From: Pelobates cultripes
Lineage: Eukaryota; Chordata; Amphibia; Anura; Pelobatidae
Reading direction: 5' to 3'
NCBI GenBank assembly: GCA_933207985.1
Contig: OW240917.1
Span: 119,344,378-119,408,377 of the forward strand
DNA: 64,000 nt
Shown here piece by piece: positions 1,717 to 64,000 of this stretch; the first letter of the stretch is position 1, and each line of letters starts with the position of its first letter. A model generated the notes under the pieces. The model searched no databases. It worked only from the letters and a program-made list of their open reading frames with translations, and was not told the origin of the DNA. Position numbers and translations under genes: made by a program.

Positions 1717-1828
1717 TTTAGATAAGCTAAAACTAGCTTGAGAACCCATTGAAGGGCAAACTATTCGTGCAGTTGTTAATTTTCAGTATTCTCTTGCACC
1801 CTGTTGTTTTGGGTTTTTTTTTTTGCTC
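1717..1828 (+). mobile_element. Truncated relative of the 9-kb hammerhead array unit (3' part only)
   Basis: This stretch aligns by eye with the 3' third of the tandem unit at 8,976-9,880. Shared blocks in the same order are GCTAAAAC.AGCTTGAGA, CCCA..GAAGGGCA..CTATT, TCAGTATTCTCTTGC.CCCTG and a T-run followed by TTTTGCTC. It lacks the hammerhead half. Its homology stops at GCTC, the same point where the third unit of the 9-kb array stops. That suggests a family with a fixed 3' terminus and 5' truncation. Confidence 0.55.
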
Positions 1829-7231: not shown

Positions 7232-8770
7232 AAAGGCCATTACTCCATACTAATTCTTCTTGACCTCTCTTCTTGTCCTTCCTCTCCAAACTCTTCAATC
7301 CCTCGGTCTCTGTGACACTGTCCTCTCATGGTTCTCCTATCTCTCTCAATGTTTGTTCAGTGTCTCCTTTTCTAATGACATCTCCTCCTCCCACCCTGTC
7401 TCGGTTGGAGTCCCCCAAGGATCTGCTCTTGGTCCCCTTCTGTTCTCTCTTTATACTGCCTCTCTTGGCAAGCTCATGAACTCCTTTGGATTCCGTTACC
7501 ATCTGTATGCCGACAACACCCAGATATATCTCTCCTCCCCTGATCTCTCTCCCACAGTCTTAAAGGTGTCACTGCTCGCCTTTCTTCAATCTCTGATTGG
7601 ATGTCCTCCCACTTTCTGAAACTCACTCTCTCAAAAACTGAGCTTCTTATTTTCCCCCCGCATAATGCTGATCCTCCTTCTTCGCTTTCCCTGCAAATTG
7701 ATGGTACTTGCATCAGTTTATCCTTGCAAGCTCATTGTCTTGGTGTTATCTTTGATCCTGACCTCACCTTTGCGCCTCATATCCAGAATGTTGCTAAAAC
7801 CTGTCGATTCCACCTTAAAAACATCACCTGCTTCCGCCCTTTTCTCACGCAAGATGCTACCAAGCAGTTTGTTCATGCTCTGGTAATCTCTTGCATGGAT
7901 GTAATTCATGTTGGTCTCCCCAGAATCCAAACTGCCTTGCTACAATTGGTAATGATGGCTGCCACCAGGCTGATCTTTCTCATCCGTTGCTCCTCCCATA
8001 CCTCACCCCTATACCGATCCTTACACTGGCTTAGTGTATCCTATAGGTGTCAATTCAAAATACTGACTCTTACCTATAAAGCTCTAACCAACTCTAGCCC
8101 CTCTTACATTTCTTCCCTGATTCATAGATATGCCCCTTCTAGGTCTCTCCACTCTGCCAGAGCCTTTCTCCTGTCTGCTGCTCGCACCCTTGCTGCTAAC
8201 TCGCGCTTGCAGGACTTCTCATGGGCAGCTCCCTTCTTTTGGAAGAGCCTGCCTACCCCATCAGACTCTCTCCTAGTCTTCAATTGTCTAAGAAGTCCCT
8301 CACAACACATCTGTCTAGAAATGCTTATGCAAAAATGGTTATAAGAACCGCACTCAATCCCAGCAGCCACCGGTGCTCTGGAGCAGGACCAGCAATCCCA
8401 ACACGTAAAGTCAAGAAAAGAGATATCCAGGCACTCAAGTGTTAAAGCCGCAGGTAAATTTTAATTAAACAAAAGGAGCAGCAACGTTTCGACCTTCACA
8501 AAGGTCTTTTCTAAGCATTTTCAAGAAATGCTTATGGACTCCCAGAGTAACTTATCCATATCTGTCTCTTGCTCTCCTAAAGAGCCATACTAAACTCTCA
8601 CCTCCAGTTATGCTACTTTTCCACCTTGTTTGGTGGCTGTCACCCTTGCTGCCCTGTTGTGTATTTGTACCCCACCTCCTCTAGACTGTAAGCTCGTTTG
8701 TGTCACTGTGTAATTGTAATTGTAATTCTCATTTATTGTAAATTTCCCACCCTTTCATAATATTGTAAAA
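7232..8770 (+). pseudogene. L2-like LINE relic: reverse transcriptase C-terminal half and 3' tail
   Basis: Translations across frames match an L2-clade non-LTR retrotransposon. The order is [16 protein letters not shown], a YADD-box variant, then the thumb/C-terminal stretch (LGVIFDPDLTFAPHI, SLHWLSVSYRCQFKILTLTYKAL, RYAPSRSLHSA). The catalytic box reads YADN: the second Asp is an Asn codon at 7515-7517, so the enzyme would be dead even without the frameshifts near 7300 and 7600. The copy is 5'-truncated and split by a 194-bp insertion at 8330. The 3' tail resumes at 8537 with AGACTGTAAGCTCGTTTG. Function of the parent: target-primed reverse transcription. Confidence 0.85.
8330..8523 (-). mobile_element. 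194-bp retro-insertion in the L2 relic, 13-bp TSD
   Basis: AGAAATGCTTATG occurs at 8317-8329 and again at 8524-8536, exactly flanking a 194-bp segment that interrupts the L2 3' region. A target duplication of that length points to a LINE-type or similar retro-insertion. On the minus strand the insert carries a perfect 6-bp hairpin (complement of 8491-8506) directly followed by GAAACGTTGC, then a T/A-rich part and CTTGAGTGCCTGG. It has no coding capacity. It resembles the repeat at 2,736. Confidence 0.8.
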
Positions 8771-8821
8771 CACAAACCATAGTAAAATGGTTTTCTCCAT
8801 TACGAGGGAAAAGCACTATGG

Positions 8822-8886
8822 TTCTCCTAGCATCATAACCACTACATCAGCCTGTAATGGTTATGATGGTTGGAGTATGCCTTTAA
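8822..8886. mobile_element. T2-type MITE, right-end fragment
   Basis: Hairpin CATAACCACTACA / TGTAATGGTTATGATGG, then GGAGTATGCCTTTAA ending in TTAA at 8883-8886. The left end is not recognisable. Confidence 0.5.
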
Positions 8887-8964
8887 GTATCATCATACTT
8901 ATAGAGCTGGATTCATAAGACTGCAGTGTCACTATAGTAAAATGTATCTAGATGTGAATTATTA

Positions 8965-8975
8965 TTATTATAGCA
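8965..8975. repeat. Left copy of 11-bp target duplication TTATTATAGCA
   Basis: Matches 9881-9891 exactly. Together they bracket the hammerhead array, consistent with a target-site duplication made when the array inserted. Confidence 0.75.
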
Positions 8976-9046
8976 GAGATATCAGCTATGCCTCACTGAT
9001 GATGCCTAACAAGGCTGAAACGATCGTCTGGGGTTGCTGTATCTCT
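8976..9046 (+). ncRNA. Type I hammerhead ribozyme, copy 1 (intact core)
   Basis: The conserved core CTGATGA is at 8996-9002 and GAA at 9017-9019. Stem III is ACG/CGT (9020-9022 with 9025-9027, 2-nt loop), followed by the cleavage-site C at 9028. Stem II is GCC/GGC (9004-9006 with 9013-9015) around a 6-nt loop; the pair next to the core is a T-T mismatch where G-C is usual. Stem I is CCTCA with TGGGG (8991-8995/9029-9033, one wobble), then an internal loop, CAGC/GCTG, a bulged T, and GAGATA/TATCTC (8976-8981/9040-9045). Cleavage would fall between 9028 and 9029. Confidence 0.75.
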
Positions 9047-9302
9047 CGTGCAGAGAGAACTTGCTGGCATTTCGGATCTGGACTGCCCGTATGGGTGGGA
9101 TCAGTCTGATATGCTTCCGAGAGGTTTTCTCTGTAAAGGCACAAGATGAACTAAAACCAGTTTGAAATCTGAGCGGGGACCCACCGAAGGGCAGGCTATT
9201 TCATCTGCTGCCCGTTCTCAGTATTCTCTTGCGCCCTGTTTTTTGCTCTCCACAAGTGTGAAGGGTAATCCAGACGTGGACCCCTTGCTCACGGTGCCTA
9301 GA

Positions 9303-9373
9303 GAGATATCAGCTATGCCACATTGATGATGCCTAACAAGGCTGAAACAATCGTCTGGGGTTGCTGTATCTCT
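9303..9373 (+). ncRNA. Hammerhead copy 2 (core C3 changed to U)
   Basis: Same fold as copy 1 but the core reads TTGATGA (9323-9329), stem III has an A-C mismatch (ACA/CGT) and stem I near the core reads CCACA. The cleavage-site C is at 9355. The C3 change normally impairs or abolishes hammerhead activity, so this copy is predicted inactive or slow. Confidence 0.65.
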
Positions 9374-9607
9374 AGTGCAGAGAGAACTTGCTGGCATTTC
9401 GGATCTGGACCGCCCGTAAGGGTGGGATCAGTCTGATATGCTTCAGAGAGGTTTTCTCTGTAAAGGCACAAGATGAGCTAAAACCAGTTTGAAGGGCAGG
9501 CTATTTCATCTGCTGCCCGTTCTCAGTATTCTCTTGCGCCCTGTTTTTTGCTCTCCACAAGTGTGAAGGGTAATCCAGACGTGGACCCCTTGCTCACGGT
9601 GCCTAGA

Positions 9608-9678
9608 GAGATATCAGCTATGCCACATTGATGATGCCTAACAAGGCTGAAACGATCGTCTGGGGTTGCTGTATCTCT
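9608..9678 (+). ncRNA. Hammerhead copy 3 (core C3 changed to U)
   Basis: Core TTGATGA at 9628-9634, stem III ACG/CGT intact, cleavage-site C at 9660, outer stem I GAGATA/TATCTC intact. It shares the C3-to-U change with copy 2, so copies 2 and 3 are closer to one another than to copy 1. Confidence 0.65.
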
Positions 9679-9891
9679 AGTGCAGAGAGAACTTGCTGGC
9701 ATTTCAGATCTGGACTGCCCATAAGGGTGGGACCAGTCTGATATGTTTCAGAGAGGTTTTCTCTGTAATGGCACAAGATGAGCTAAAACCAGCTTGAGAT
9801 CTGAGCGCGGACCCACCGAAGGGCAGGCTATTTCAGCTGCTGCCTGTTCTCAGTATTCTCTTGCGCCCTGTTTTTTGCTCTTATTATAGCA

Positions 9892-10253
9892 ATGGCTACA
9901 TCTCTGTTCTCCACTATAACTGTGTACTTTGTGCATGGGTATGTTTGGGTCTATTCCCTAACACCCCTGGACACTGGAGGTGCTATAGAATGTATCTTCT
10001 ACTGTTCTCAGCCAGTATTTACTTAAATCTGAGTATTCTTTTACCCCAATACCAAAGTCACAAATGTATAGTTTTATACCAATAATAGATATCTATCTAA
10101 TGTTGTTCCAAGAGTGGGACTGGAAAGTATTATCAAATACACTTGGTGATAGTGCTTTGGCCGTTTAACGGTAATTCCAGCATTTTACAAGATCTCCAAG
10201 ATTGACAATGACATGAATCAGGACTTGGGAGATTAGATAGCCTATCCTGAGTA
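9892..10253. other. No recognised feature
   Basis: Ordinary AT-rich sequence between the hammerhead array and the Tc1-like element. It supplies the TA target at 10252-10253. Confidence 0.35.
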
Positions 10254-11814
10254 CAGGGAGTGCAGAATTATTAGGCAAATGAGTATTTTGACCACATCAT
10301 CCTCTTTATGCATGTTGTCTTACTCCAAGCTGTATAGGCTCGAAAGCCTACTACCAATTAAGCATATTAGGTGATGTGCATCTCTGTAATGAGAAGGGGT
10401 GTGGTCTAATGACATCAACACCCTATATCAGGTGTGCATAATTATTAGGCAACTTCCTTTCCTTTGGCAAAATGGGTCAAAAGAAGGACTTGACAGGCTC
10501 AGAAAAGTCAAAAATAGTGAGATATCTTGCAGAGGGATGCAGCACTCTTAAAATTGCAAAGCTTCTGAAGCGTGATCATCGAACAATCAAGCGTTTCATT
10601 CAAAATAGTCAACAGGGTCGCAAGAAGCGTGTGGAAAAACCAAGGCGCAAAATAACTGCCCATGAACTGAGAAAAGTCAAGCGTGCAGCTGCCACGATGC
10701 CACTTGCCACCAGTTTGGCCATATTTCAGAGCTGCAACATCACTGAGTGCCCAAAAGCACAAGGTGTGCAATACTCAGAGACATGGCCAAGGTAAGAAAG
10801 GCTGAAAGACAACCACCACTGAACAAGACACACAAGCTGAAACGTCAAGACTGGGCCAAGAAATATCTCAAGACTGATTTTTCTAAGGTTTTATGGACTG
10901 ATGAAATGAGAGTGAGTCTTGATGGGCCAGATGGATGGGCCCGTGGCTGGATTGGTAAAGGGCAGAGAGCTCCAGTCCGACTCAGACGCCAGCAAGGTGG
11001 AGGTGGAGTACTGGTTTGGGCTGGTATCATCAAAGATGAGCTTGTGGGGCCTTTTCGGGTTGAGGATGGAGTCAAGCTCAACTCCCAGTCCTACTGCCAG
11101 TTCCTGGAAGACACCTTCTTCAAGCAGTGGTACAGGAAGAAGTCTGCATCCTTCAAGAAAAACATGATTTTCATGCAGGACAATGCTCCATCACACGCGT
11201 CCAAGTACTCCACAGCGTGGCTGGCAAGAAAGGGTATAAAAGAAGAAAATCTAATGACATGGCCTCCTTGTTCACCTGATCTGAACCCCATTGAGAACCT
11301 GTGGTCCATCATCAAATGTGAGATTTACAAGGAGGGAAAACAGTACACCTCTCTGAACAGTGTCTGGGAGGCTGTGGTTGCTGCTGCACGCAATGTTGAT
11401 GGTGAACAGATCAAAACACTGACAGAATCCATGGATGGCAGGCTTTTGAGTGTCCTTGCAAAGAAAGGTGGCTATATTGGTCACTGATTTGTTTTTGTTT
11501 TGTTTTTGAATGTCAGAAATGTATATTTGTGAATGTTGAGATGTTATATTGGTTTCACTGGTAATAATAAATAATTGAAATGGGTATATATTTGTTTTTT
11601 GTTAAGTTGCCTAATAATTATGCACAGTAATAGTCACCTGCACACACAGATATCCCCTAACATAGCTATAACTAAAAACAAACTAAAAACTACTTCCAAA
11701 AATATTCAGCTTTGATATTAATGAGTTTTTTGGGTTCATTGAGAACATGGTTGTTGTTCAATAATAAAATTAATCCTCAAAAATACAGCTTGCCTAATAA
11801 TTCTGCACTCCCTG
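10254..11814 (+). mobile_element. Tc1-like DD37E transposon, nearly intact, TA-flanked
   Basis: The 1,561-bp element is bounded by TA (10252-10253 and 11815-11816). Its terminal inverted repeats match over 25 bp, beginning CAGGGAGTGCAGAATTATTA. A second related motif (GTGCATAATTATTAGGCAAC) lies inside each end, at about 10,435 and 11,610, giving an inverted-repeat/direct-repeat layout typical of many Tc1 elements. It encodes one transposase with a single frameshift. Identical ends and an almost open reading frame point to recent insertion. The catalytic spacing and termini suggest the TRT (DD37E) group known from fish, frogs and other vertebrates; that name is from memory and needs a search. 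Confidence 0.9.
10472..11487 (+). pseudogene. Tc1-like transposase (DD37E) with one frameshift
   Basis: Cut-and-paste transposase acting in the nucleus on the element's own ends. The N-terminus (MGQKKDLTGSEKSKIV) begins a helix-turn-helix DNA-binding domain (CSTLKIAKLLKRDHRTIKRFI). It is followed by a basic GRKKRVEKPRRK stretch that fits a nuclear localisation or minor-groove-binding motif. The catalytic domain shows LWTDE, MQDNAPSH and NPIENLW, with exactly 37 residues between the second Asp and the Glu. Without the shift it would be about 338 residues, the usual Tc1 size. Frame 2 is used up to about 10,744 and frame 1 from about 10,747, consistent with loss of one base there. All three catalytic acidic residues are present. 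I chose the start at 10472 because it opens the canonical N-terminus. Confidence 0.9.
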
Positions 11815-12731
11815 TACAATCCTTATTTAATTCAATGGCCTTTCATATAACAGAAACCATGCTATACGACCTTAGTAATAGGGATATTCTTATCGCTTAA
11901 TATTTGTTCAGATGTAATAATCTCAAACATTAAGTGGTTAAAATGCACAAGTCCCAAGAGCCCAATATCACTATGCATAGTCCAGATGCAGATAGTAGCT
12001 CCTTTTAACACTTTCATGAGTTTCTTAATTAATAGATTATATGCTTAAGGCCAAGATGCTGTCATTATTAAACTGAAACTGAGATGGGCTTCTGGGAAGG
12101 TGTTTGTAATTAATGCCTGAAAGTGTTAATCGTGTTTGGCCTGACTGAATGATATTTAGGAATAACCTAGAAAAACAGTACAAAACTAGAGCATGAAAAG
12201 CAGAGAACGTACATGAGCAGTATTTCTTTTTTTATTGCCAAAAGGTGTAATTAATTTGTGCTTCTAGTTATACGAGTGCACTAACAAGCGTATCGTGTTT
12301 TTAAATAGAGTAATTATTTATACAGAATACAATTAGCAACATGTTGCGTTTGTCTGCAAGTGCAGCATGACCTTCATATTTCATATAGTTTGCTGATAAC
12401 CAAGAATATTTAGTATAAAAAAAGTATCCTGAAAGTGTGTGGCCCCACAAAACCTTAATCCTAACACTATAGTGTCCCTCTGACCCCCTCCCTTATTCTT
12501 TACAATCACAATCATTTTCACATAATCAGACAAATCAGAGCTTTCCGTATTCTACCTGCATACTTTCTTCTTCACACTTTACAATCTCTCCAACTTGAAC
12601 TATGTCTACACCAGTCCTTCTCCAGCCTTCTCATCATGCTCTCTGACCATTGCATTCCAGGCAAACACACAATGTCAAGAGTTGCTTCCAGACTGCAGAG
12701 CATCTCTAAAGGAAACCAAACGTTCCAATAC
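11815..12731. other. Mostly no recognised feature; short T2-like scrap near 12,465
   Basis: AT-rich sequence. At about 12,462-12,480, AACACTATAGTGTCCCTCTG resembles the end of T2-type copies at 37.4 and 39.1 kb, but no TTAA termini frame it. No coding signal. Confidence 0.35.
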
Positions 12732-15560: not shown

Positions 15561-16619
15561 CCAGCCTATCTGCTCCAATTTACTTATTGCTTACCGAGAC
15601 TAGAAAGACATTTGCAACTATTCCCCACAACATCTCTAGATAGTAGGACCTGTCATAATCATCATTAATAAATTGTGTTCAGTTAGTACCATCTGTCTAC
15701 CTGCTCTTCACAGATATAAAATCCATAAAGTAAATCAAATATTAGAACAATCCATATGTGCATTGACACTTGAACATAGCGCTTGCAGGCAGCTTGATGC
15801 ATCATTGTAATATAAGACAGAGAGGAGTGGGAATTTCCTGTAGCTACAGGCTATTGGCACAAGTCTGAGATTGGCTTAGTGTTTACACCAAAGGGAAATG
15901 AATGACTTGCATGCCTTGATTTGTTGTGCACAATGTCCTGAGCTAAATTTGTTAAACTCACTTTCGAGATTTCCCTGAACATGCATAATAGCAATGCTAC
16001 AGAAACGATTTAAATTACATTTGAGAATTGAATAACATTCAAGATTAGTAAATGGCTGATTTACAAAGTAGTTTTAGTGCTAAATTAATGTGCGGTTTCC
16101 TTTAAGAAATACTGTTTAACCACTGTAACCAATTGATCCAGTATGTAAAATGACATAGATCCATCAATTAGCTGGAGCATTATGGGGGATGTAGTACACA
16201 ATATCTGGAGTGCTGTTTCTGTTTTATTAGTGAGTTATTTTTTTTTTAAAAGAAATAATAAACAAGTGTTTTCCACTAAATTGTGAATTGTAATGAATTG
16301 AAAACCAATTTGGAAACTTTTGACCAAAAGTGGTAATTTGGAAAAATACATCTCAAACCAATGGAAATGCATTAGTTCTATGGCTAACTCTTAGTATAAG
16401 ATGCTCTAGAGTTGTGTGTATGAGTGTTCAGTTGTTCCATCAAAAATTTACACATAAAATGTGATCCTTATAAAAAAAACAAAAAAAAACAAACACGTTT
16501 TTCTTGGGTTTAACTAGGAGAAATTTAAGTACAGTGAGTGGCCGGCATAAATATCATTAGACAATAGGAGGTGGATGAGGGAAAGTATGGGCTTATGGAA
16601 CAAAACATTTTTTTTAAGG
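15561..16619. other. No recognised feature
   Basis: AT-rich sequence, with short A and T runs near 16,240 and 16,480. No supported gene or repeat end. Confidence 0.35.
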
Positions 16620-16915
16620 AAAACTCAAATCACCATAAACATTACAGCATATTGTAGTGGATATGGTGCCAGGCTGTAAAGTTGTAAAAATATTTGGTAA
16701 CAGTTTGGTTTTTTAACTGGGGTCCGCCGGATGCCATACACTGCCTCTCTGCAGCCAAAAGTGGGTGCCAGAATCTCCTTCAATCAGCTTTTGTTAGCAA
16801 TACTAAGCTTAACCTGGCATGTAGAGCCAGCACATTGGATGAGAGTGTCAGCTGATTATCTCTGACAGCAGAGGGGAGCTACACCCACAGACCACAGGTA
16901 AGAAGTCATAATAGG
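16620..16915. repeat. T2-like fragment
   Basis: CACCATAAACATTACAGCATATTGTAGTGGATATGGTGCC forms the pairing seen at T2-type MITE ends. The following segment (GCCAGCACATTGGATGAGAGTGTCAGCTGATT) resembles T2 interiors. Termini are not clear. Confidence 0.35.
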
Positions 16916-21388: not shown

Positions 21389-23346
21389 CAGGGCCACCAT
21401 CAGGGGGTGACAACCATGATGGTTGTCACAGTCCCGGCATCCTGGGGGGACCAGGACTGCTCTGGCAGCTCCGGGCCCCACATTCCCTCTCTGCACACAT
21501 AGATAGCGAATATTGCTATCTATATGTGCAGCTGCGGGGCCCCGGCTCCCTGTAACTGCAGAGGGGGCCCAGCACACTGCGTCTACTCTTCTCTTCTCCT
21601 CTCTTTTAATAACTCTTGCGAGACCACGCTCAGAAGGCTGCGGGTCTCGCGAGATTTATTAGAAGAGAGGAGAAGAGAAGAGTAGACACAGTGTGCTGGG
21701 CCCCCTCTGCAGTAACAGGGAGCGGGGACCCCCTATGCCACCTGGGGTCCAGTGGGGCTTTTCACAGGAAGGGAGGCATGTGGTTGTCCGGCTAAAAATC
21801 CGGTCGGTCGGGCGGCACTGGCGAAGGAACGTCATATTCCAGCTCCAGGTGACCGGCATCACCCTGCGGCGGGCGAGGGAGCTGTGCAGAGAGCTCAGGG
21901 GAAGGTGCTCCCTCGCCAGCGCCGCCCGCCCGACCCAGATTTTTAGCCGGACAACCGCCTGCCTGAACTGTTAGCTGCCAGGCTAACAAGGCATTTGCCC
22001 TGGGCATTTGGGGGCGGCGTTTTTTGCCGCCCCCTGGAAAATGCCGCCCAAGGCAGATGCCTTGTTTGCCTCGCAGCTAATACGTCCCTGCACTCACTGC
22101 ATACACTAATACAACGCTTACACTAATACAACACACACTCTGCATACACTACAATGACACACACACTGCATACAATAATATAACACCCACTGCATACACT
22201 AATACAACACACACACTACATACACTACACACTAACACACTCTCTGCATTCACTACACTAACACACTCTGCATTCACTACACTAACACACTGCATCCACT
22301 ACACTGACACACTGCATCCACTACACTGACATACACTCTGCATTCACTACACCAATACACACTCTGCATCCACTACACACTAACACACTCTCTGCATTCA
22401 CCACACTAACACACACTCTGCATTCACTACACACTAACACACTCTCTGCATTTACTACACACTAACACACTCTGCATTCACTACACTAACACACACTCTG
22501 CATTCACTACACTAACATACACTCTGCATCCACCACACACTAACACACTCTCTGCATTCGCTACACTAACACACACTCTGCATTCACTACACTAACACAC
22601 ACTCTGCATTCACTACACTAACGCACACTCTGCATTCACTGCACTAACACACACACTACATTAATTACACTGACACACACTCTGCATTCACTACACACTA
22701 ACACACACTCTGCATTCACTACACTAACACACACTGCATTGATTACACACTAACACACACTCTGCATTTACTACACTATGCACACACTCTGCATTTACTA
22801 TACTGACATATACTACGCATTCACTACACTGACACACACTCTGCATTAACTACACTGACACACACTCTGCATTCACTACACTAACATACACTCTGTATTA
22901 ACTATACACACAGCATCCACTACACAAACATCCTGTATTTACAGTGCACACACTACATCCACCATACATTGAAACACTCTGCATTCACTATACAGAGACA
23001 CTGCGTCTAATACACACGCTACATCCACTACAGACACTTCGTCCGCTAAACACATTGCATCTAGTACACACAAACATTACATCCACTACACAAACCCACA
23101 CTACATCACTGTACACACACTACAGCCACTACTCAAACACACTCTGCGTTCACTGCACAAACAGTATCTAATATACACAAACATTACATTCATTGCACAT
23201 ATTCTAATTCACTTCCACTATACACACCACATTCAGTCCTGCATCATTGTCAGCGGACTAGGTAGGGCGTGGGCGAGCCCGGGGGGCGGGGGGGGCCCAG
23301 ACCATGTGCTTTGTCAGAGGCCCCAAAATTTCTGATGGCAGCCCTG
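21389..23346. mobile_element. hAT-type element C with AC minisatellite, perfect TSD ATGGCACA
   Basis: Left end CAGGGCCACCATCAG and right end complementary to CAGGGCTGCCATCAG. ATGGCACA is present at 21381-21388 and 23347-23354. The 1,958-bp element contains two long GC-rich foldbacks (about 21,519-21,725 and 21,783-21,965) and a hAT-like terminus in reverse (ending CGTATTAGC complement near 22,092). A 1.1-kb minisatellite of the unit CACTCTGCATTCACTACACTA follows. No transposase. It is inserted in hAT B. Confidence 0.9.
22090..23220. repeat. AC-rich minisatellite inside hAT C
   Basis: Units near ACACACTCTGCATTCACTAC, about 21-31 bp, with substitutions and an occasional extra ACACACT. Divergence rises toward the right end (ACATCCACTACACAAAC variants). 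Confidence 0.85.
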
Positions 23347-42842: not shown

Positions 42843-45402
42843 CAGGCCCGGACTGGCCATCGGGCACACCGGGCAAATGCCCGGTGGGCCGCGGTGGCCA
42901 TGGGGCCGAGGCCGGCAGGGGAGGTCACAGGATCTCCCCTGCCGGTCTATGCAGGGCCGGCACTATCCGAGCGCCGGCCCCGCTGTCTTCCATGGAGGGC
43001 CGATGGGGAGATCAAAGATCTCCCTCACCGGCCCATTTAAATAGACCTGCGGCTGGGGAGGGAGAGGACCCGGCGGAGCTCTGTCTTGCAGCTCCGCCGG
43101 GTTTCTCTCGCGAGATCCGGAGCGTTGCCATGGCAACGCCCCGATCTCGCGAGAGAGTTCACTCACCACTGGACCACCAGGGATGGTGTGCGAGTGCCGG
43201 TGCCCCCCCTCCCAGCTACCACGTGCCTGTCCCCCCCTCCCAGGCTAAAGGTAAGAAGGGAGGGGGGGGGTTTAGTTTTTTTTTTGCTTAGTTTTTATTT
43301 TATTTTTTTATATATTTACCCCCACTTAATTTTTTATTTGTTTATTTACCCCCCAACACACAACATTTATACACAGCACTATCACACTCAGCATTCTCAG
43401 CACTCACACAACACTCTCACACACATCACACCCAGGACTCTCACACCCAGCACTCTCACACTCAGCACTCTCACACACAGCACTCTCACACACAGCACTC
43501 TCACACACATCATAGCACTCTCACACCCAGCACTCTCACACACAACACTCTCACACACATCATAGCACTCTCACACCCAGCACTCTCACACCCAGCACTC
43601 TCACACTCAGCACTCTCACACACATCATAGCACTCTCACACTCAGCACTCTCACACACATCACACGCAGCACTCTCACACACATCATAGCACTCTCACAC
43701 ACATCATAGCACTTTCACACACATCATAGCACTTTCACACACAGCACTCTCACACACATCATAGCACTCTCACACACATCATAGCACTCTCACACACAGC
43801 ACTTTCACACTCAGCACTTTCACACTCAGCACTCTCACACACATCACACGCAGCACTCTCACACACATCACACACAGCACTATCACACCCAGCACTCACA
43901 ACACACAACACTCTCACACACAACACTCTCACACACAACACTCTCACACACAACACTCTCACACATCACAGCACTCTCACACATCATAGCACTCTCACAC
44001 ACATCACACGCAGCACTCTCACACACATCATAGCACTCTCACACACAGCACTCTCACACACATCATAGCACTCTCACACACATCATAGCACTCTCACACA
44101 CATCATACACAGCAATCTCACACATCGCAGCACTCTCACACACATCATAGCACTCTCACACACATCATACACAGCAATCTCACACATCGCAGCACTCTCA
44201 CACACATCATAGCACTTTCACACACAGCACTTTCACACTCAGCACTCTCACACACAGCACTCAGCACTCAGGCACATCACTCTCACACACATCACACTCA
44301 GCACTCACACACATCATACACAGCACTATCACACTCAACACTCATACACAGCACTATCACACTCAGCACTCACACACATAACATACAACACTCACACACA
44401 GCACTCTCACACATCACTCTCACACACATCACACATCATACACAGCACTATCACACTCAGCACTCACACACATCACACACACAACACTCTCACACACATC
44501 ATACACAGCACCATCACACACACAGCACCCTCACACACATCACACCTCACACACACATACTGAACCCCTCACATACACACAACCCCCCAATACACTGCAT
44601 CACACACATACACAATACTTCCAAACATATTTATATAAACTATATATATATATATATATATATACACATACACACAACACCCCTCACACACACACTGCAC
44701 CCCTAAACACATTACATTCCAGACACACACTAGATCCTTTAGCCAACTCTGGATCATATACACACACACACTCTGGACCCCCTATATGCACACTAGATTC
44801 CTTGTAAGCAAACACATACTACATTCCCTGAACACACACTCTCTACAAACACTACATCACCTATATACACACACACACACACACACTATAGCCTGTATAC
44901 ACACACTTGCTACATCCCCTATAGACACATTCTCTACAGCCCCTAGCCACATATGCATTACATTACACCACAAACACAACACGACTAAAACCGACCTTAT
45001 TACACAATACCACACCATGACCAGCTCACTCTGCACACACGCAATACCCCAAGCAGGCTCCAAACACATGCACAATACTCTTTCCTGGCCCTTTTGTCTC
45101 CTGGTATCCATTTATAGAAACACCAGAGACAAGTTGCAAGGAAACACAGTGCAAGCATGTTATTAAATTTGCTTGCACTGTGCAGAACAAATACAGGGCT
45201 TTTTTTCTCATGCTAGAGTTCTTCAGCAGAGCTCTGTGCATGGTCTGCCCTGGAAGAGCATTGAACCAACATGCTCACTTTGAGAGGGGGCGTGTTTGTC
45301 ATGAGTGATGACAAAACACACCCTCTCTGCCCCGCCCCCTTCTTAGTGTGCCGCTGTGATAAAAAAATGCCCGGGCTGAATTTTTTTCCCAGTCCAGCCC
45401 TG
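42843..45402. mobile_element. hAT-type element E with AC minisatellite, perfect TSD CACATTAA
   Basis: Left end CAGGCCCGGACTGG and right end complementary to CAGGGCTGGACTGG. CACATTAA at 42835-42842 and 45403-45410 is a perfect 8-bp duplication. The 2,560-bp element contains GC-rich palindromes at the left (GGCAGGGGA...TCCCCTGCC, and GCGGAGCT...AGCTCCGC near 43,073-43,100). A CTCGCGAGA pair brackets GTTGCCATGGCAAC. The 1.2-kb array and a short (TA)n run at 44,640-44,663 follow. No transposase. Element F at 50,845 has the same two ends in the opposite orientation. Confidence 0.9.
43375..44560. repeat. CACTCTCACACACATCATAG minisatellite inside hAT E
   Basis: About 60 copies of 14- and 20-base variants (CAGCACTCTCACAC, CACTCTCACACACATCATAG), mixed in patches that suggest local block duplication. 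The open frames read through it are artefacts. Confidence 0.9.
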
Positions 45403-50934: not shown

Positions 50935-51344
50935 TGTGTGTGTATGCATATATTGAGTAATGTGTGTATAGAGTGTGTGTGTGTGTGTGTGTGTGTGAAT
51001 GCATGGGGGTGCAGTGTGTATAAGGGATATAGAGTGTGTAGTGTGTGAGTGCAGGGGGTGTATTGTGTGTTCATAGAGGGTATAGAGTGTGTGAGTGCAG
51101 TGTAAGATTAGGGGGTATAGAGTTTGTGTACTGTGTGTATGTGAGTGATGGGTGTGTGGTGAGTGATAAGGGTTACAGAGTGTGTGTAATGTGTGTGTGT
51201 GTAAGTGCAGGAGATGTAGTGTGTGTATTTAAAGGGGTATAGAGTGTGCGTATTGTGTGTGAGTGCAGGGGGTGTACATAAGGGGTATAGAGAGTGTGTT
51301 GTGTTGTGTTGTGTGTAAGTGTAGGGGGTGTAGTGTGTCAATAG
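50935..51344. repeat. GT-rich minisatellite inside hAT F
   Basis: Units like GTGTGTAAGTGCAGGGGGTGTA and GGGGTATAGAGTGTGTGTA, alternating with short (GT)n runs. Confidence 0.8.
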
Positions 51345-52240
51345 GGGGCAGGATGGCAGATTGTGGATTAATATGGGGTAAGATGACAGGGAGTGTAGTG
51401 GGTTAATAGGGGGTATGATGGCAGGCGATGTAGTTGGCTAATAGGTGGTGTAGTGTGTTAATAGGGAGTATGATGGCAGGTGGTGTAGTGGGTTAATAGG
51501 GGGTATGATGGCAGGGGGTGTAGTGGGCTAATGGGTGGTGTAGTTGGTTAATAGGGGGTATGATGGCAGGTGGTGTAGTGGGTTAATAGGGGGTATGATG
51601 GCAGGTGGTGTAGTGGGCTAATGGGTGGTGTAGTGTATTAATAGGGGGTATGATGGCAGGTGGTGTAGTGGGTTAATAGAGGGTATGATGGCAGGGCGTG
51701 TAGTGGGTTAATAGGGGGTATGATGGCAGGTGGTGTAGTGGGCTAATGGGTGGTGTAGTGTATTAATAGGGGGTATGATGGCAGGTGGTGTAGTGGGTTA
51801 ATAGGGGGTATGATGGCAGGGGGTGTAGTGGGCTAATGGGTGGTGTAGTTGGTTAATAAGGGGTATGATGGCAGGTGGTGTAGTGGGTTAATAGGGGGTA
51901 TGATGGCAGGGGGTGTAGTGGGCTAATGGGTGGTGTAGTTGGTTAATAAGGGGTATGATGGCAGGTGGTGTAGTGGGTTAATAGGGGGTATGATGGCAGG
52001 TGGTGCAGTGGGCTAATGGGTGGTGTAGTGTGTTAATAGGGGGTATGATGGCAGGTGGTGTAGTGGGTTAATAGGGGGTATGATGGCAGGGGGTGTAGTG
52101 GGCTAATGGGTGGTGTAGTTGGTTAATAAGGGGTATGATGGCAGGTGGTGTAGTGGGTTAATAGGGGTATGATGGCAGGTGGTGTAGTGGGTTAATAGGG
52201 GTATGATGGCAGGGGGTGTAGTGGGTATATAGGGGGTATG
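51345..52240. repeat. Higher-order minisatellite (35+35+20, 90-bp period) inside hAT F
   Basis: Base units GTGTAGTGGGTTAATAGGGG with TATGATGGCAGGTG (35 bp) and GTGTAGTGGGCTAATGGGTG (20 bp). Blocks of 35, 35 and 20 recur as a 90-bp unit; for example TGGTGTAGTTGGTTAATAAG is at 51,841 and 51,931. Variants within blocks are nearly identical, which indicates recent amplification. Confidence 0.9.
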
Positions 52241-53761
52241 ATGACTGATTAATTAATTTAATCATTAAAATATATATATTCCATCAAGCCCCTAGTAACA
52301 GTTGCATGCAGGATGTAGATTCTAAACAGATCTATAAGAGTACTGTCATGATGACAATCTCATATGAACATCTGAGCTATATTCTGCTTCTGAAAGCAAT
52401 AGTGCCATTTCTTCAATATAATAACTGCTTTTTCAAATTCATTACAAGAATAAAACCACCTGTATGAATTTGAAAGAATCTGTGAATTTTATGATCTGCA
52501 ACATTGGTCACAGACTAAAGGCAGGCTGGATAAATGACGGGAATCTCCCCAGTTGGCCCAATAAATCATATTGGTTTATAATCTGACTAGCCACCGTTTT
52601 CTCCTAATTCTGCTGTTGAAACCTTTATAGCCATAGTTTGTGGACGGTGTGCATGCCATGTTGTTTCATTCCAGGGACTCTGATGACTCCATTCCACTGC
52701 ACAGTTTCAAGTGTATTAGAAGGAAAATACTTCCACAATATTACAAAGTTTAACATTGCCAGCTTTAGATCATTTCTGATTTGCAAATAGGAGATGGAAG
52801 AAACAGCAGTTAGCAGTAAGGTACCAAGGTAGCAAGATACCAAATAGAGTATATAAGTCTATATGTGGACCAGTAAACCCAGTACAGTAAGCACCTTTCT
52901 CTATGCATAATTTTATATATGTAAAATTGGAGTTAAATAACATAAATGATTACACAATAAAAACTCTTATCATCGATCTCAATACAATACAATAACTAAA
53001 TTACTTATAGCTAGTGCCCATAAATATATATGTCCATTTAATTTATATTTAGACTGCCATGCAGCTCGTCTTAGGAGTGGGTTGTCCTCAACACTCCAGA
53101 CAACTGTTTAGTAAACAATATATCTGAAACAGAAGCACAAAGGGGCTTCAGTGGTATAGGAAGGTTTTTAAATTAAAAAAAATAAAGGAGTCAAGACAAG
53201 GGTACTTACAAACAAAGTGCCAATACCCCTACCTGTACTATACTTCAAGGTGCAGACAGTCACAGGGCAGTCTTGTCTGGGCTCAGCTCTGTCTTGCAAA
53301 GCGTTCTGCAGATCTGGAAAGATGCCGCCGCTACGCTGAGCACTGTAGCCGGCCGCCGCGTATGTTGCTGTTCACATTCGACCCATGTTGATGCTGCTCA
53401 AGAAAAATCTATGCGCACTGCTGGCCAGCGGTCGCTGGAGCATTGGCCGCGGCCCACGGCAGGATGAACAAGAACATATTTTTTTTCCTGGCTTGTGGCT
53501 GGGTGCAGCCACGGCTCAAAGGAGGCCCAGGGCAGGCAGCCTACCAGGAAATTTTACAGTATCCCGGTAGGCCAGTCCGGGCCTGCGATATCAGAACCAC
53601 AACAGGAAGTATCCCTAATAGCTGTCTAGGAAGTATTGTAAATAACGTCTTTTCTCAGAAAAGGCAGCGTTTACTTTGCTGACACTGCAGACATAATCTC
53701 TTTGTAACCAGAACCACTAAATTAAGCTGTAGTGATTCTGGTGCTTAGAGTGCCCCTTTAA

Positions 53762-54349: not shown

Positions 54350-57300
54350 ATGGGATATGGAAGAAACATTAACAGCATTAGAAGACTGGTCAAGACGTAA
54401 CAATTTAAGAATCAGAGGAATACCATATCCACTACTCGTGATACGGTATGGCGGGAGTTAGCCGTCATACACTGCACTTGCTTTAAGTTGATGCCAATGT
54501 TTTAGATCAATCCGTCTCATCTTTATGTAAACACTAATAAAGAAAGGTTTTTGATTTCTGTATATGTTTGGTAACAGAGAGAGAGAAACCCAGAAAACAA
54601 AAAAATATCATAAATTAAGTTGATGTCTATAAATGCCCGGGGGATAAATACACCATGTAAAAGGTCAATAATTGTAGATTATTTGAAAAAAAATGGGTAC
54701 AAATTTGTGCCCTCCAAAAAACTCACTGGACAAAAGTTAAAGAAAAGACAATAAATTCACCGAGATACCCCATAATTATAAGTGCAGCCTTAGAAAACAA
54801 AAAAAAGGGGTGTTGCACTTATTTTTGCAAAAAATGTTTCCCTAGTTATTAAATACCAAGAACTAGATCCAGAAGGGCGATATATTATTTTAATATGTAA
54901 AATAAACAACAAAGGATTTACACTAGCCAAACAAAGCAACACCAAACAAAGCAACGATAACATTTATATCAAGAGTGCTTAAAAATATAGAGCAGATTAG
55001 ACAAGGGATGATACTAATTATGGGGGATTTTAACTGCGTAGTTGACCCGCTAAGCAATAGAATGAGCCAGAATGATAAGAAAAATGATAAAAAAGATGAG
55101 AATATACTGCAAAACTTACTTAATAATCACAATTTAAGAGATATATGAAGAACATTCCATCTCACAGATTTAGATTATACATGTTATTTCAGAACATTCA
55201 ATTCTTACTCCAGAATAGATTTTAATCTGGGTGATGTGACCATGCTGTATCTTGTTAAAAAAAATAGAAATACAGGATATAGCATAGTTAGACTATAGCC
55301 CCATCATGCTGGAATACAAAGACAATTTTGACAATTTTCGCAAAGAGTGGAGCATAAAAGACTTTATACCACACAAAAAAAGTAATGTGGAAGAAATTTT
55401 AAAAATAACAAATCTCTTTTTTCCTGAAAACAAAAACAAAGGTACACTGGACATTACGGTCTGGTGCACATATAAAAGTGTAGTTAGAGGTCACCTGATA
55501 AAAATGATATAGATTGAAAACAAAAAAGGAATACCGCCCCTACCAAAACTATATATAACATTAAGTGAACAAAAAAGGCAAAATAAATTAACACCTACTA
55601 CACAAATAACAAGTAAGATTGCAGAAATAGAAAAACAGATTAGCAATCAACTATTAAATAAAGCATCCAAACAACTAGAATCAAGTTAAATGGTATTTAA
55701 AAGGCAACAAACCAGAAACAATGATGTCCAATAAACTGAAAAAAGACAAACATAAAAGAGTAATACATAAAATAAAAGAGAACGACACTTATCTAATGGC
55801 CCCAGAAAAAAATCGGTGGAGCTTTTGAAAGATTTTATCAGAATTTATGTAGCTTACTAGAATAAATATTTGGTAAAACAGAAGAGATTAGGAATTTCTT
55901 TTGGCCCATGCCAAAACCAGCCCATAACAGAAGTAGAGGTTAGTAAATCGATATACAAACTTAAAATAAAGACCGCTCCAGGCCCTGATGGCTTTACAAA
56001 TACATTTTACAAATTAATGAAAGATCAACTAAAAGGAAACTCACTAATATTTTTAACTATATAATGGAAACAGGAAACTGTCCTGGAGAGCTGTTGAGGG
56101 CAAACATTGTGCCCATCCCAAAAGCAGATAAAGACCCAGAAAACATAGGCAACTATAAAGCCATATCATTAATCAATACAGATATTAAAATACTATCTTC
56201 CATTCTAGCTAACAGATTAAAACACAGTAACACCACAACTTATTAATAATGATCAAGTTAGATTTATACCAGGGAGGTCCTCAATTAACAATCTTACAAA
56301 AATAATAAACATAATGAAGGAAACGGAGAGAAGTGGAACCCCTCTAATACTTCTGTCAATAGACGCAGAGAAAGCGTTTGACAGGGATGGATGGGATTTC
56401 ATGTTCGCCGCTTTAAACCGGTTCAGACTCACTGGACCAATCCTACAAGCCATGTCTGATCGCTACAGCTCTCCATCAGAAAAGATAATAGGGTCAGGCT
56501 TTACATCACAAAATTTTAACATCAAACACGGGACCAGACAAGGGTGCCCTCTCTCTCCCTTACTGTATATAATGGTGCTAGAACCCTTGGCGATTTCAAT
56601 AAGACAGAATAAAAAAATTAAGGGATTCACAAACTCACTAAGACAAACTAAATTAAACATCTATGCAGATGACATCCTATTAACATCAGAAGAGCCAAAC
56701 ATTTCAGTCCCAGATTTACTGAAGGACATAAGCAATTACTCCAAAGTCTCAGGATATAAAATAAATTTGGAGAAATCTACAGTTATAGCTAAAAAAAATG
56801 AACAAAAGGATAATTAAACTTCTTGTGCAGAACACAGGGCTCCCCAAGAACAGTGATAGGCTAAAATATCTAGGCATCAATATAACTACAGAATTCAAGA
56901 ATTTAATAGAAGCTAACTTTCTACCACTATTAAAACAAACTAATAAAAATAATAAAAATCTAAGGGATTGGAAAGGCATGGGCTTTTCATGGTCGGGCAG
57001 GATTAACATCCTAAATGCATATATCCTGCCAAAATGGCTGTACTTGTGGAGAATGCTTCCAATTAATTTCCCAGAAAACTGGCTGTCCTTACTACATTCT
57101 TCCTTTGCTAAATTTATTTGGGGGAGACAGGGAGCAGGAAACCAAGAGTTAAAATGAAAGTATTAGCCAGGTCAAGACAGGACAGAGGTTTGGGGTGTCC
57201 AGAAGGTTTGCAATGCTATCTGGCCAGCAGACTATTTCACATAATGCTCACACAAAGTAAGGCAGCAACCCAAGAAATGTGGTATAAAATGTAAAAAGCT

Positions 57301-58995: not shown

Positions 58996-59129
58996 TAATT
59001 TAAAAAAATCAAGGGAGGAGTATTTTTTGCACAGAATTGACGTTTTGCAGTCCAGAATAGAGTACCCAGCTGCAAGAGTTACATGTGCCTGGAGTATAAC
59101 TTATACACGGCACAAATCTGCACATACAG

Positions 59130-59192
59130 ATGCCTACTACCATGACCACATCAAGTCACTGAAGTGGTCATGTGATTGGAGTAACCCTTTAA
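59130..59192. mobile_element. T2-type MITE right-end fragment
   Basis: Hairpin CATGACCACATCAAG / CTGAAGTGGTCATG followed by GATTGGAGTAACCCTTTAA (TTAA at 59189-59192). No left end. Confidence 0.5.
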
Positions 59193-59199
59193 TGGAAAA

Positions 59200-61110: not shown

Positions 61111-62229
61111 TGTAAAAGCCATTTAGTTAGTTATTATCATGCTTAAAATTTGGTGTTAATTTAGCTGATTAAAATAATTGTTCAAATCATTTTAGCCATA
61201 ATTGTTTTTAACATACACACTTTATTAAGTTTCATTTTGCCAATTTTAAAACCATAGACCTCACCTTGAACAAGTTATAAAGCTATAAAAAAGTCTAGAA
61301 AATTTGTGTTTGTTAACTTCAGATAACCTATGCTGTGGCTTAAAAAGAGCTATTTAAAAGAGCGTCCGTTGCTAACGATACATCCTGAAATGTGGTATGA
61401 AGTCTGAATAACAATGCCTGTATGTGCTCATTTGCATGTCAAGCTTGGAACTCTAAGATAGTTGTGGAAAGATGATTTCTCTAGGATCTATTACCAAGGA
61501 GGACTTTTCAAAGTCCAACTTGAGATATGAAGGTGATGCACACCAGTAATTTCTCTTTTTACTTTAGAGAAAAGACATCTCAGAGGTAGTATGATATAAC
61601 ATATAAGCTTATGCTTTCTGGTAACCTATTTACAAACAAGACTGTACATAGGACAAGATGTCTTCCTTTGAGACTTGAAAAGAAAGGACATTTTCCTGCA
61701 ACATACAAAAGGTTTTTTTTACTGTAAGAACAATAAACATGTGTTATATATACAGTTTTATTCTGTAGAGAAAAAAAGCCTTTTTTCTTGAAACAAAAAA
61801 ATAAATTACCAAGAAGAAATCTGCCATTTTGAAATTAAGATGAGTTCTTTCCTGTTTGTAGTATGATTGGATATTGCTTCAGATAAGATGTTATACCGTC
61901 TTTTTGATCAACAGCAGAAATGAAGGGTGATAGGTTGAACCTGTGTTTGAATATTTCAACCTAGACTAGACATAGGACATTGGAGTGTGCATCTGTATGT
62001 TCTGGAGAGCGTGTATATTTACGCCTAGTTGGTCCATAGTTTGTTTCACAGTTTTTTTTATAGACACCATAATTTGAAACATATACACAGGTCTGAGATA
62101 TTATTTTTAAATGACATTTATGTCTCATTTGGGGCAGTTAGGCAGCAGGCCATGTATTAAAATTGCCCTCACAGACGTATAACAGACATGCATATTTCCC
62201 ACATAACAGACTTCCTTTGCTTACATTGC
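61111..62229. other. No recognised feature
   Basis: AT-rich sequence; no repeat ends or coding signature. Confidence 0.35.
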
Positions 62230-62699
62230 TTAAAGGGATACTATAGTCACCAGAACTATTACAGCTTAATAGTAGTAGTCTTTTCAATCTAAACACGGCC
62301 TATTCAGAGAAAAGGCAATGTTTACCTTGCTGCCTAGGAACACCCCTCTAGTGGCAGACACTCCACGCTCTTCATGGAGGCACTGAACCTTCCCCATTGA
62401 GATGCATTAATTCACTGCATCTCTATGAGGAGATGCTGATTGGCACAGAGTGAGCAGTAGACTTCCAATGCTTTTCTGTGGGAAAACATTAGATTGCCTG
62501 AGATCATCAAATTTGATGATCTCAGCCATGAAGGTGGAGGAAGGAGGGGCCAGACGCAGTGAGACAGGTGCAGTGTGAGAAGAAAGGTTAGTTTAAACAC
62601 CTTTTCATTATATGGGGTGGGGGGGGGCAGACACCTAAATAGTTATTTTAGCACTGTAGTGCCAGGAATACATGTTTGGACACTATAGTGCTAATTTAA
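62230..62699. mobile_element. Complete T2-type MITE (reference for the 50.6-kb split copy)
   Basis: TTAAAGGGATACTATAGTCACC at the left, GGACACTATAGTGCTAATTTAA at the right, TTAA on both sides, 470 bp. It contains two inner palindromes, GAGATGCATTAATTCACTGCATCTC and GATGATCTCAGCC-type. The interior matches, inverted, the halves at 50,608-50,844 and 53,586-53,761. Confidence 0.75.
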
Positions 62700-63410: not shown

Positions 63411-64000
63411 CAGTGGCGGATCCAGAGCCTGATCTCGGGAGGGGCACTTGTAGATTATTTAAAGAAATAATCCAGACACAATAACTACTACAGCTCAGTG
63501 TAGTGGTTATGGTGTCAATAGTGCCGGGACCCCCTCCTAGAGTAAGTAGTCAAACCATTTAAGAACAGTTTGACAATTTACCTGAGGTCTGCTGGGAAAT
63601 GGGGCGGTAGTAGGGCATAGGAGCAGTGGTGTGTGTGAGTGGTGCAATGTGTAAGGGGTGCAGTGTGTGTGTGTGTGTGTGTGAAGGTTGTAGTGTGTGA
63701 GTAGGGGGGGCAGTGTAAGTCAGGGATGCAGTGTATGTGTGGGACAGTATGTGTGTGTAACAGTTGCAGTGTGTGTGTGAATGTGGGCAATGTGTGTGTA
63801 TGGGGCGGCAGTGTATGGGGGCAGTGTGTGTGTATGCGGGGCAGTATGTGTGTATGAGGGCAGTATGTGTATGGGGGGGCAGTATGTGTGTATGGGGGGG
63901 CACCATGGGGGGCAGTATGTGTGTATGGGGGGGCAGCATGGGGGCAGTATGTGTGTATGGGGGGGCAGCATGGGGGGGCAATATGGGGGCTATGTGTGTG
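63411..64000. mobile_element. hAT-type element I, left end, cut by the window edge
   Basis: Starts CAGTGGCGGATCCAGAGCC, a familiar hAT-like terminus. It contains a T2-type left end (TTAA at 63459, then AATCCAGACACAATAACTAC / GTAGTGGTTATGG) and a GT/G-rich minisatellite from 63,620 to the edge (units like GGCAGTATGTGTGTATGGGG). The right end is outside the window. Confidence 0.55.

Follow-up and report, generated by a model that had tools for sequence, protein, structure and literature searches.

How does a small tandem repeat that encodes no protein come to be copied into a new place in a genome? The question is raised by an array of three head-to-tail units, the first with an apparently intact hammerhead ribozyme and the other two with degenerate ones, at 8976-9880 of a 64,000-nucleotide stretch of DNA, the whole of which we analysed and call the window. 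In the published model of retrozymes, self-cleaved RNA circles are the mobile form (PMC7229834), and an earlier sequence-only reading of the locus had derived the array from such a circle. The anatomy of the array makes this step testable. The locus is an element of a known kind, and it carries several signs that run contrary to the circle model or to the view that retrozymes have no promoter, namely a promoter-like site, a 5' end that matches it, a 3' end common to a second locus, and broken ribozymes common to two units.

Architecture of the array

The units and the duplication that flanks them are as follows.

8965..8975, + strand: 5' copy of the target-site duplication, 11 bp, TTATTATAGCA, exact match to 9881-9891
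8976..9302, + strand: unit 1, 327 bp, from repeat search and alignment
9303..9607, + strand: unit 2, 305 bp, carrying a 22-nt deletion, from alignment
9608..9880, + strand: unit 3, 273 bp, body only, terminating in TTTTTTGCTC, from alignment
9881..9891, + strand: 3' copy of the target-site duplication, TTATTATAGCA, exact match to 8965-8975

Alignment reproduced the coordinates that had been given for the three units, which amount to 2.83 units in total, and the 11-bp direct repeat reported around them is indeed exact. Matches of at least 11 bases at a 905-bp spacing occur at 13 of 62,000 positions, namely at 8975 and at 12 positions within a simple repeat at 43.49-43.51 kb. Because seven of the 11 duplicated bases prolong a TTA run, the duplication counts as fewer than 11 independent bases of evidence.

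The claim that the array encodes no protein also held, as no ORF of at least 100 aa touches it and the longest start-codon ORF that overlaps it (79 aa) begins in the flank. The tRNA search found no tRNA gene, and exact-pattern scans of IMG/VR and GTDB contigs, collections in which animal DNA is not expected, returned no matches. A scan for bacterial promoters and terminators was set aside as not applicable.

We are highly confident that the array is a retrozyme, and we place it with the non-LTR retrozymes of vertebrates, nearest to those of amphibians. The part of the sequence-only reading that stands is a small, non-coding, tandem hammerhead element with a long flanking duplication, as described in animals (PMC7229834), and this retrozyme-type non-coding anatomy implies dependence on the reverse transcriptase of another element. 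The unit lengths fall within the 150-450 bp of animal non-LTR retrozymes, and the GC fractions of the two predicted monomers (0.502 and 0.495) are borderline with respect to the retrozyme criterion of less than 50%. The label 'vertebrate' is plausible on sequence grounds, the best Rfam model being the vertebrate HH9; together with a stem III like that of the axolotl elements, this suggests a vertebrate host, probably an amphibian.

Hammerhead ribozymes of the three units

8976..9045, + strand: unit 1 hammerhead of type I, with its core CUGAUGA / GAAA / GUC intact and a predicted cut after C9028, from a descriptor, explicit pairing and an HH9 match below cut-off
9303..9372, + strand: unit 2 hammerhead, degenerate, with core UUGAUGA, an A.G mismatch in stem I and CAAUCG replacing the CGAUCG palindrome, from alignment and pairing
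9608..9677, + strand: unit 3 hammerhead, degenerate, with the same UUGAUGA core and stem-I A.G mismatch as unit 2, from alignment and pairing

Explicit pairing of unit 1 gives a stem I with six inner pairs and 11 outer pairs with a bulge, and a stem II of four pairs over a U.U mismatch; beyond the core A-U, stem III has one C-G pair under a GAUC cap. The C-G pair with a GAUC tetraloop above it is seen in units 1 and 3, and the loop of unit 2 reads AAUC. A strict type I descriptor, which requires five or more pairs in the inner stem I, matched unit 1 and nothing else in the window, and none of 100 dinucleotide shuffles searched on both strands; a looser descriptor found 33 matches in the same 100 shuffles of the window. 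The cleavage-site C had been placed at 9028, 9355 and 9660, which is correct in each unit. The accompanying claim, that all three units fold into type I hammerheads, is too strong, since the core is complete in unit 1 but units 2 and 3 have UUGAUGA and A.G in stem I.

The sequence-only reading had proposed an Rfam search as a check; no model reached its gathering score anywhere in the window. Under relaxed conditions the best match was HH9 (RF02275) at 8981-9047, on unit 1 only, with 18.7 bits against a cut-off of 52 and an E-value of 0.13 in a search of 1,051 bases. In those 1,051 bases no hammerhead model matched units 2 or 3 up to E 10, and the Rfam search of the whole window found none, HH9 included, up to E 5. 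SNORD25 matched all three units at 15.4-16.7 bits (cut-off 39); we read this as a match to the UGAUGA box and rejected it.

The energy model predicts a non-hammerhead fold in all three units (for unit 1, -29.4 kcal/mol for the best fold versus -22.2 kcal/mol for the hammerhead). Since it favours other folds, the hammerhead assignment rests on the core and the helices, not on folding energy. Cofolding hammerheads in pairs was uninformative about a paired ribozyme, all six pairs gaining about 4 kcal/mol.

A change of C3 to U harms the hammerhead, and because units 2 and 3 have in common both this change and a broken stem-I pair, their ribozymes are probably dead. In hammerheads of the Penelope type, the C3G change abolishes activity (PMC11167929).

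Units 1 and 2 differ at 8 of 305 aligned bases, besides the 22-nt deletion in unit 2, units 1 and 3 at 16 of 273, and units 2 and 3 at 10 of 251. Among the 251 columns present in all units 16 are variable, of which six single out unit 1, two unit 2 and eight unit 3; two further differences between units 1 and 3 fall within the unit 2 deletion. As unit 1 has the working base in both ribozyme columns, the direction of change can be assigned there, and the defects that units 2 and 3 share are derived. If all units had been copied from a single active circle, such common defects would not be expected. The changes common to units 2 and 3 could also be due to gene conversion once the array was in place.

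Ends of the array and a second locus with the same 3' terminus

9249..9302, + strand: 54-nt spacer between the body of unit 1 and unit 2, missing from both array ends, from alignment
9554..9607, + strand: the 54-nt spacer again, with no difference from the copy at 9249-9302, from alignment
1720..1828, + strand: locus related to, but diverged from, the final ~105 nt of the body, with the same terminal GCTC (TTTTTTGCTC), from similarity and block score

At its 5' end the array begins with the outer stem of the hammerhead, and at its 3' end it stops at unit position 273, in TTTTTTGCTC. Neither end lies at the hammerhead cut site, which is unit position 53. The 54 nt that separate the 3'-end point from the 5'-end point are found only between units, twice and without a single difference.

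The 3' end recurs elsewhere in the window. The relative at 1720-1828 is identical to the body in 72 of 101 columns over 1720-1809, and its block score of 48.0 was reached by none of 2,000 shuffles. Similarity was absent past the GCTC: the next 20, 30, 54 and 80 nt score 4.0, 4.0, 5.0 and 7.5, where shuffled sequence averages 4.2, 5.4, 6.4 and 7.8. Upstream of the relative the homology is marginal, with a score that 161 of 2,000 shuffles reach, so that its 5' end is uncertain. The 109 bases of this relative fit either a copy truncated at its 5' end or a partner element's tail, and around it no duplication was found except T-runs of 7-8 bases.

Two other features near the spacer were considered and dropped. 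A spacer hairpin that might anchor a reverse transcriptase is no stabler than shuffled sequence (z -1.27; 21 of 200 shuffles reach it), and a similarity of 9236-9256 to the LINE at 8562-8582 (E 8.1) was treated as chance.

A candidate snRNA-type promoter

9247..9265, + strand: PSE-like element TCTCCACAAGTGTGAAGGG, spanning -56 to -38 relative to the unit 2 start, scored with human PSEs, a candidate only
9552..9570, + strand: the PSE-like element again, spanning -56 to -38 relative to the unit 3 start, scored with human PSEs, a candidate only

The PSE-like site, at the 5' edge of the spacer, was spotted by eye and scored afterwards, with human PSEs as the reference. The letters used for U6, U2 and H1 are those that we take to be the human elements. 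The scans for the octamer and the 3' box used their consensus sequences. With four human PSEs, the sites at 9247 and 9552 rank among the top 3 of 127,964, and of 1066 equal tiles 3 attain their score, a count that includes the array's own two copies, as do all the tile counts that follow. Leaving one PSE out at a time gave 2 of 1066 tiles without U6, 5 without U1, 3 without U2 and 31 without H1. With the published letters of U1 and U5 (PMC9758055) the count was 15 of 1066, and with all five PSEs 3 of 1066; single elements discriminate less, with 193 of 1066 for U1 and 145 of 1066 for U5.

The spacing of the candidate resembles that of known elements. By the TBP register of PMC9758055 the human U1 PSE lies at -60 to -42, and on U5 the SNAPc contacts lie at -57 to -35. 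The start predicted from the PSE-like site falls about 4 nt from the array's 5' end. The 40 nt preceding the unit hold no TATA box, which would fit polymerase II. No exact octamer occurs within 8701-9950, and a 3' box behind the 3' terminus was rejected, since it agrees at 7 of 11 positions, a level met by 6.7% of window sites. Upstream of the array, at 8898-8975, the best PSE score is 1.6, versus 12.2 at the candidate site, so that unit 1, the one with the intact ribozyme, would be without such a promoter of its own.

A snRNA-type polymerase II promoter has been described for newt satellite 2 (PMC2220036), and a 2020 review states that retrozymes seem to be promoterless (PMC7761336). Among the matches listed in a literature search that left most subscription papers outside its reach, no paper joined retrozymes with the proximal sequence element.

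Origin of the array

We judge it probable, if narrowly so, that the template of the insertion was a primary transcript, linear and several units long, rather than a self-cut circle. Taken together, the ends of the array and the defects common to units 2 and 3 make a linear RNA template of 2.83 units the simplest reading, which is built on one array and one relative.

The course of events that we infer covers transcription, cleavage, circles, the reverse transcriptase and the linear template, with cleavage, circles and ligation carried over by analogy from axolotl work (PMC7229834). Transcription would begin near unit position 1, driven by an snRNA-type polymerase II promoter in the spacer of 54 nt, and long RNAs would traverse several units. 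Type I hammerheads could cut these into monomers of 327 or 305 nt, perhaps efficiently only when two hammerheads are paired via the palindromic GAUC loop; with such pairing, unit 1 could use its intact core to cleave at the sites of units 2 or 3. The monomers would then be circularised by an RNA ligase of the host. The template for the present array would have been an uncut linear RNA of 2.83 units, running from the transcription start to the fixed 3' terminus TTTTTTGCTC, and the reverse transcriptase of another element would have copied it at a nicked AT-rich site, leaving the 11-bp duplication. A Penelope-like protein is known to use uncut RNA, to initiate internally, and to cut or prefer AT-rich DNA (PMC11167929). 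No Penelope-like gene was found among the 10 window ORFs scanned with Pfam, out of 446 of at least 50 aa in the window, and a LINE is a possible source of the reverse transcriptase.

Origin from a circle, as the sequence-only reading had it, would mean that a self-cleaved, circularised unit underwent rolling reverse transcription, that the multimeric cDNA was inserted, and that the unit differences came later. We consider this rather unlikely here, even though it is the published general model of retrozymes (PMC7229834; PMC7761336) and yields a non-integral number of units naturally. The predicted 327- and 305-nt circles are stabler than shuffled sequences (z -4.4 and -4.5; 100 shuffles each), but their paired fractions of 0.70 and 0.66 are close to the 0.64 and 0.65 of the shuffles. 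Against it, neither end of the array coincides with a cleavage site. The 5' end agrees with the transcription start expected from the PSE-like element upstream of it, a coincidence that the circle leaves unexplained, and the 3' end is common to the second locus at 1720-1828. Units 2 and 3 moreover share two ribozyme-damaging bases where unit 1 keeps working ones.

An improbable course is that the insertion consisted of one unit or a short piece, and that unequal crossing-over or gene conversion later enlarged and homogenised the array in the manner of a satellite. It would account for the changes shared by the neighbouring units 2 and 3, and newt hammerhead repeats were originally reported as satellite DNA (PMC7229834). 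It sits poorly, however, with an array of only 2.83 units whose clean ends lie inside an exact duplication, and an inserted body-only monomer would be without the 54-nt spacer that is present twice inside the array.

That the repeats are the pseudo-LTRs of a Penelope-like remnant is very improbable: such elements do have hammerheads of type I and a tandem arrangement (PMC11167929), but no ORF of at least 100 aa touches the array, no reverse transcriptase or GIY-YIG endonuclease gene lies between the repeats, and Penelope-type hammerheads are minimal and usually without helix III nucleotides (PMC7761336), which the array's stem III has.

If the linear multimeric template is taken beyond this locus, one could speculate that vertebrate retrozymes spread mainly as linear multimers, transcribed from an internal snRNA-type promoter to a fixed 3' terminus and reverse transcribed before the ribozyme cuts. 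The ribozyme would then compete with mobilisation, and arrays with broken ribozymes would travel better. We put this forward tentatively and hold it to be somewhat doubtful. A multimer would be needed in such a scheme because the promoter lies between units and is lost from a one-body copy. If other copies prove to share these ends, the role of the hammerhead in these elements would need rethinking.

Relation to known hammerhead elements

The closest likeness is to the axolotl non-LTR retrozymes Amex1 and Amex2 (Cervera and de la Peña 2020, PMC7229834), which likewise have tandem units of ~330 bp, a type I hammerhead and no protein, and a flanking duplication longer than 4 bp (here 11 bp, exact). 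With Amex1 the array shares a one-pair stem III under a palindromic tetraloop, and with Amex2 the U.U at the base of stem II. Unlike either, it combines both stem features, has two degenerate ribozymes out of three, and has its 5' end at a candidate transcription start and its 3' end at a fixed terminus.

Newt satellite 2 (PMC2220036, PMC6155905), likened here by its description, is a ~330-bp hammerhead repeat with a snRNA-type polymerase II promoter and dimeric cleavage via stem III, whereas the promoter in the array is a motif only. HH9, HH10 and the repeat-associated hammerheads of Xenopus (PMC3088659) enter the comparison through HH9, the best, sub-cut-off Rfam match of unit 1; HH9 itself is described as a single conserved intronic motif, unlike a tandem mobile array. 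This match bears on the proposal that conserved vertebrate hammerheads are descended from such elements (PMC3088659). Penelope-like elements (PMC11167929) resemble the array in their tandem arrangement, type I hammerhead, AT-rich target and uncut RNA template, but they are autonomous and coding, with a minimal hammerhead, and the array has no coding capacity.

Other repeats in the window

The array lies among several other mobile or repetitive sequences. LINE-like reverse transcriptase fragments are present at 7254-8344 and 56221-57162 (RVT_1 in 7254-7616 and 56221-56814), the former stopping ~600 bp upstream of the array. On the other side, a Tc1/mariner-like transposase occupies two overlapping ORFs at 10442-11487 (HTH_38 and DDE_3, Pfam), and the locus has a short inverted repeat, with ~10250-10290 paired with 11780-11817. 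Related hairpins (ACTCCAACCACCAT...) occur at 1421-1495, 8824-8886, 16609-16673, 53686-53761, 59119-59193, 62229-62279 and 63451-63522, and we read these ACTCCAACCACCAT hairpins as the ends of a TTAA-flanked MITE family. A palindromic repeat at 1994-2149, with sub-threshold matches to MIR7724, mir-5408 and mir-991, is also read as a MITE, and a long, near-perfect inverted repeat at 21573-21695 has a sub-threshold match to mir-4716 (56.8 bits versus 76). Finally, a minisatellite with ~35-bp units spans 51322-52243, and a long CACACT-rich array spans 43371-44558.
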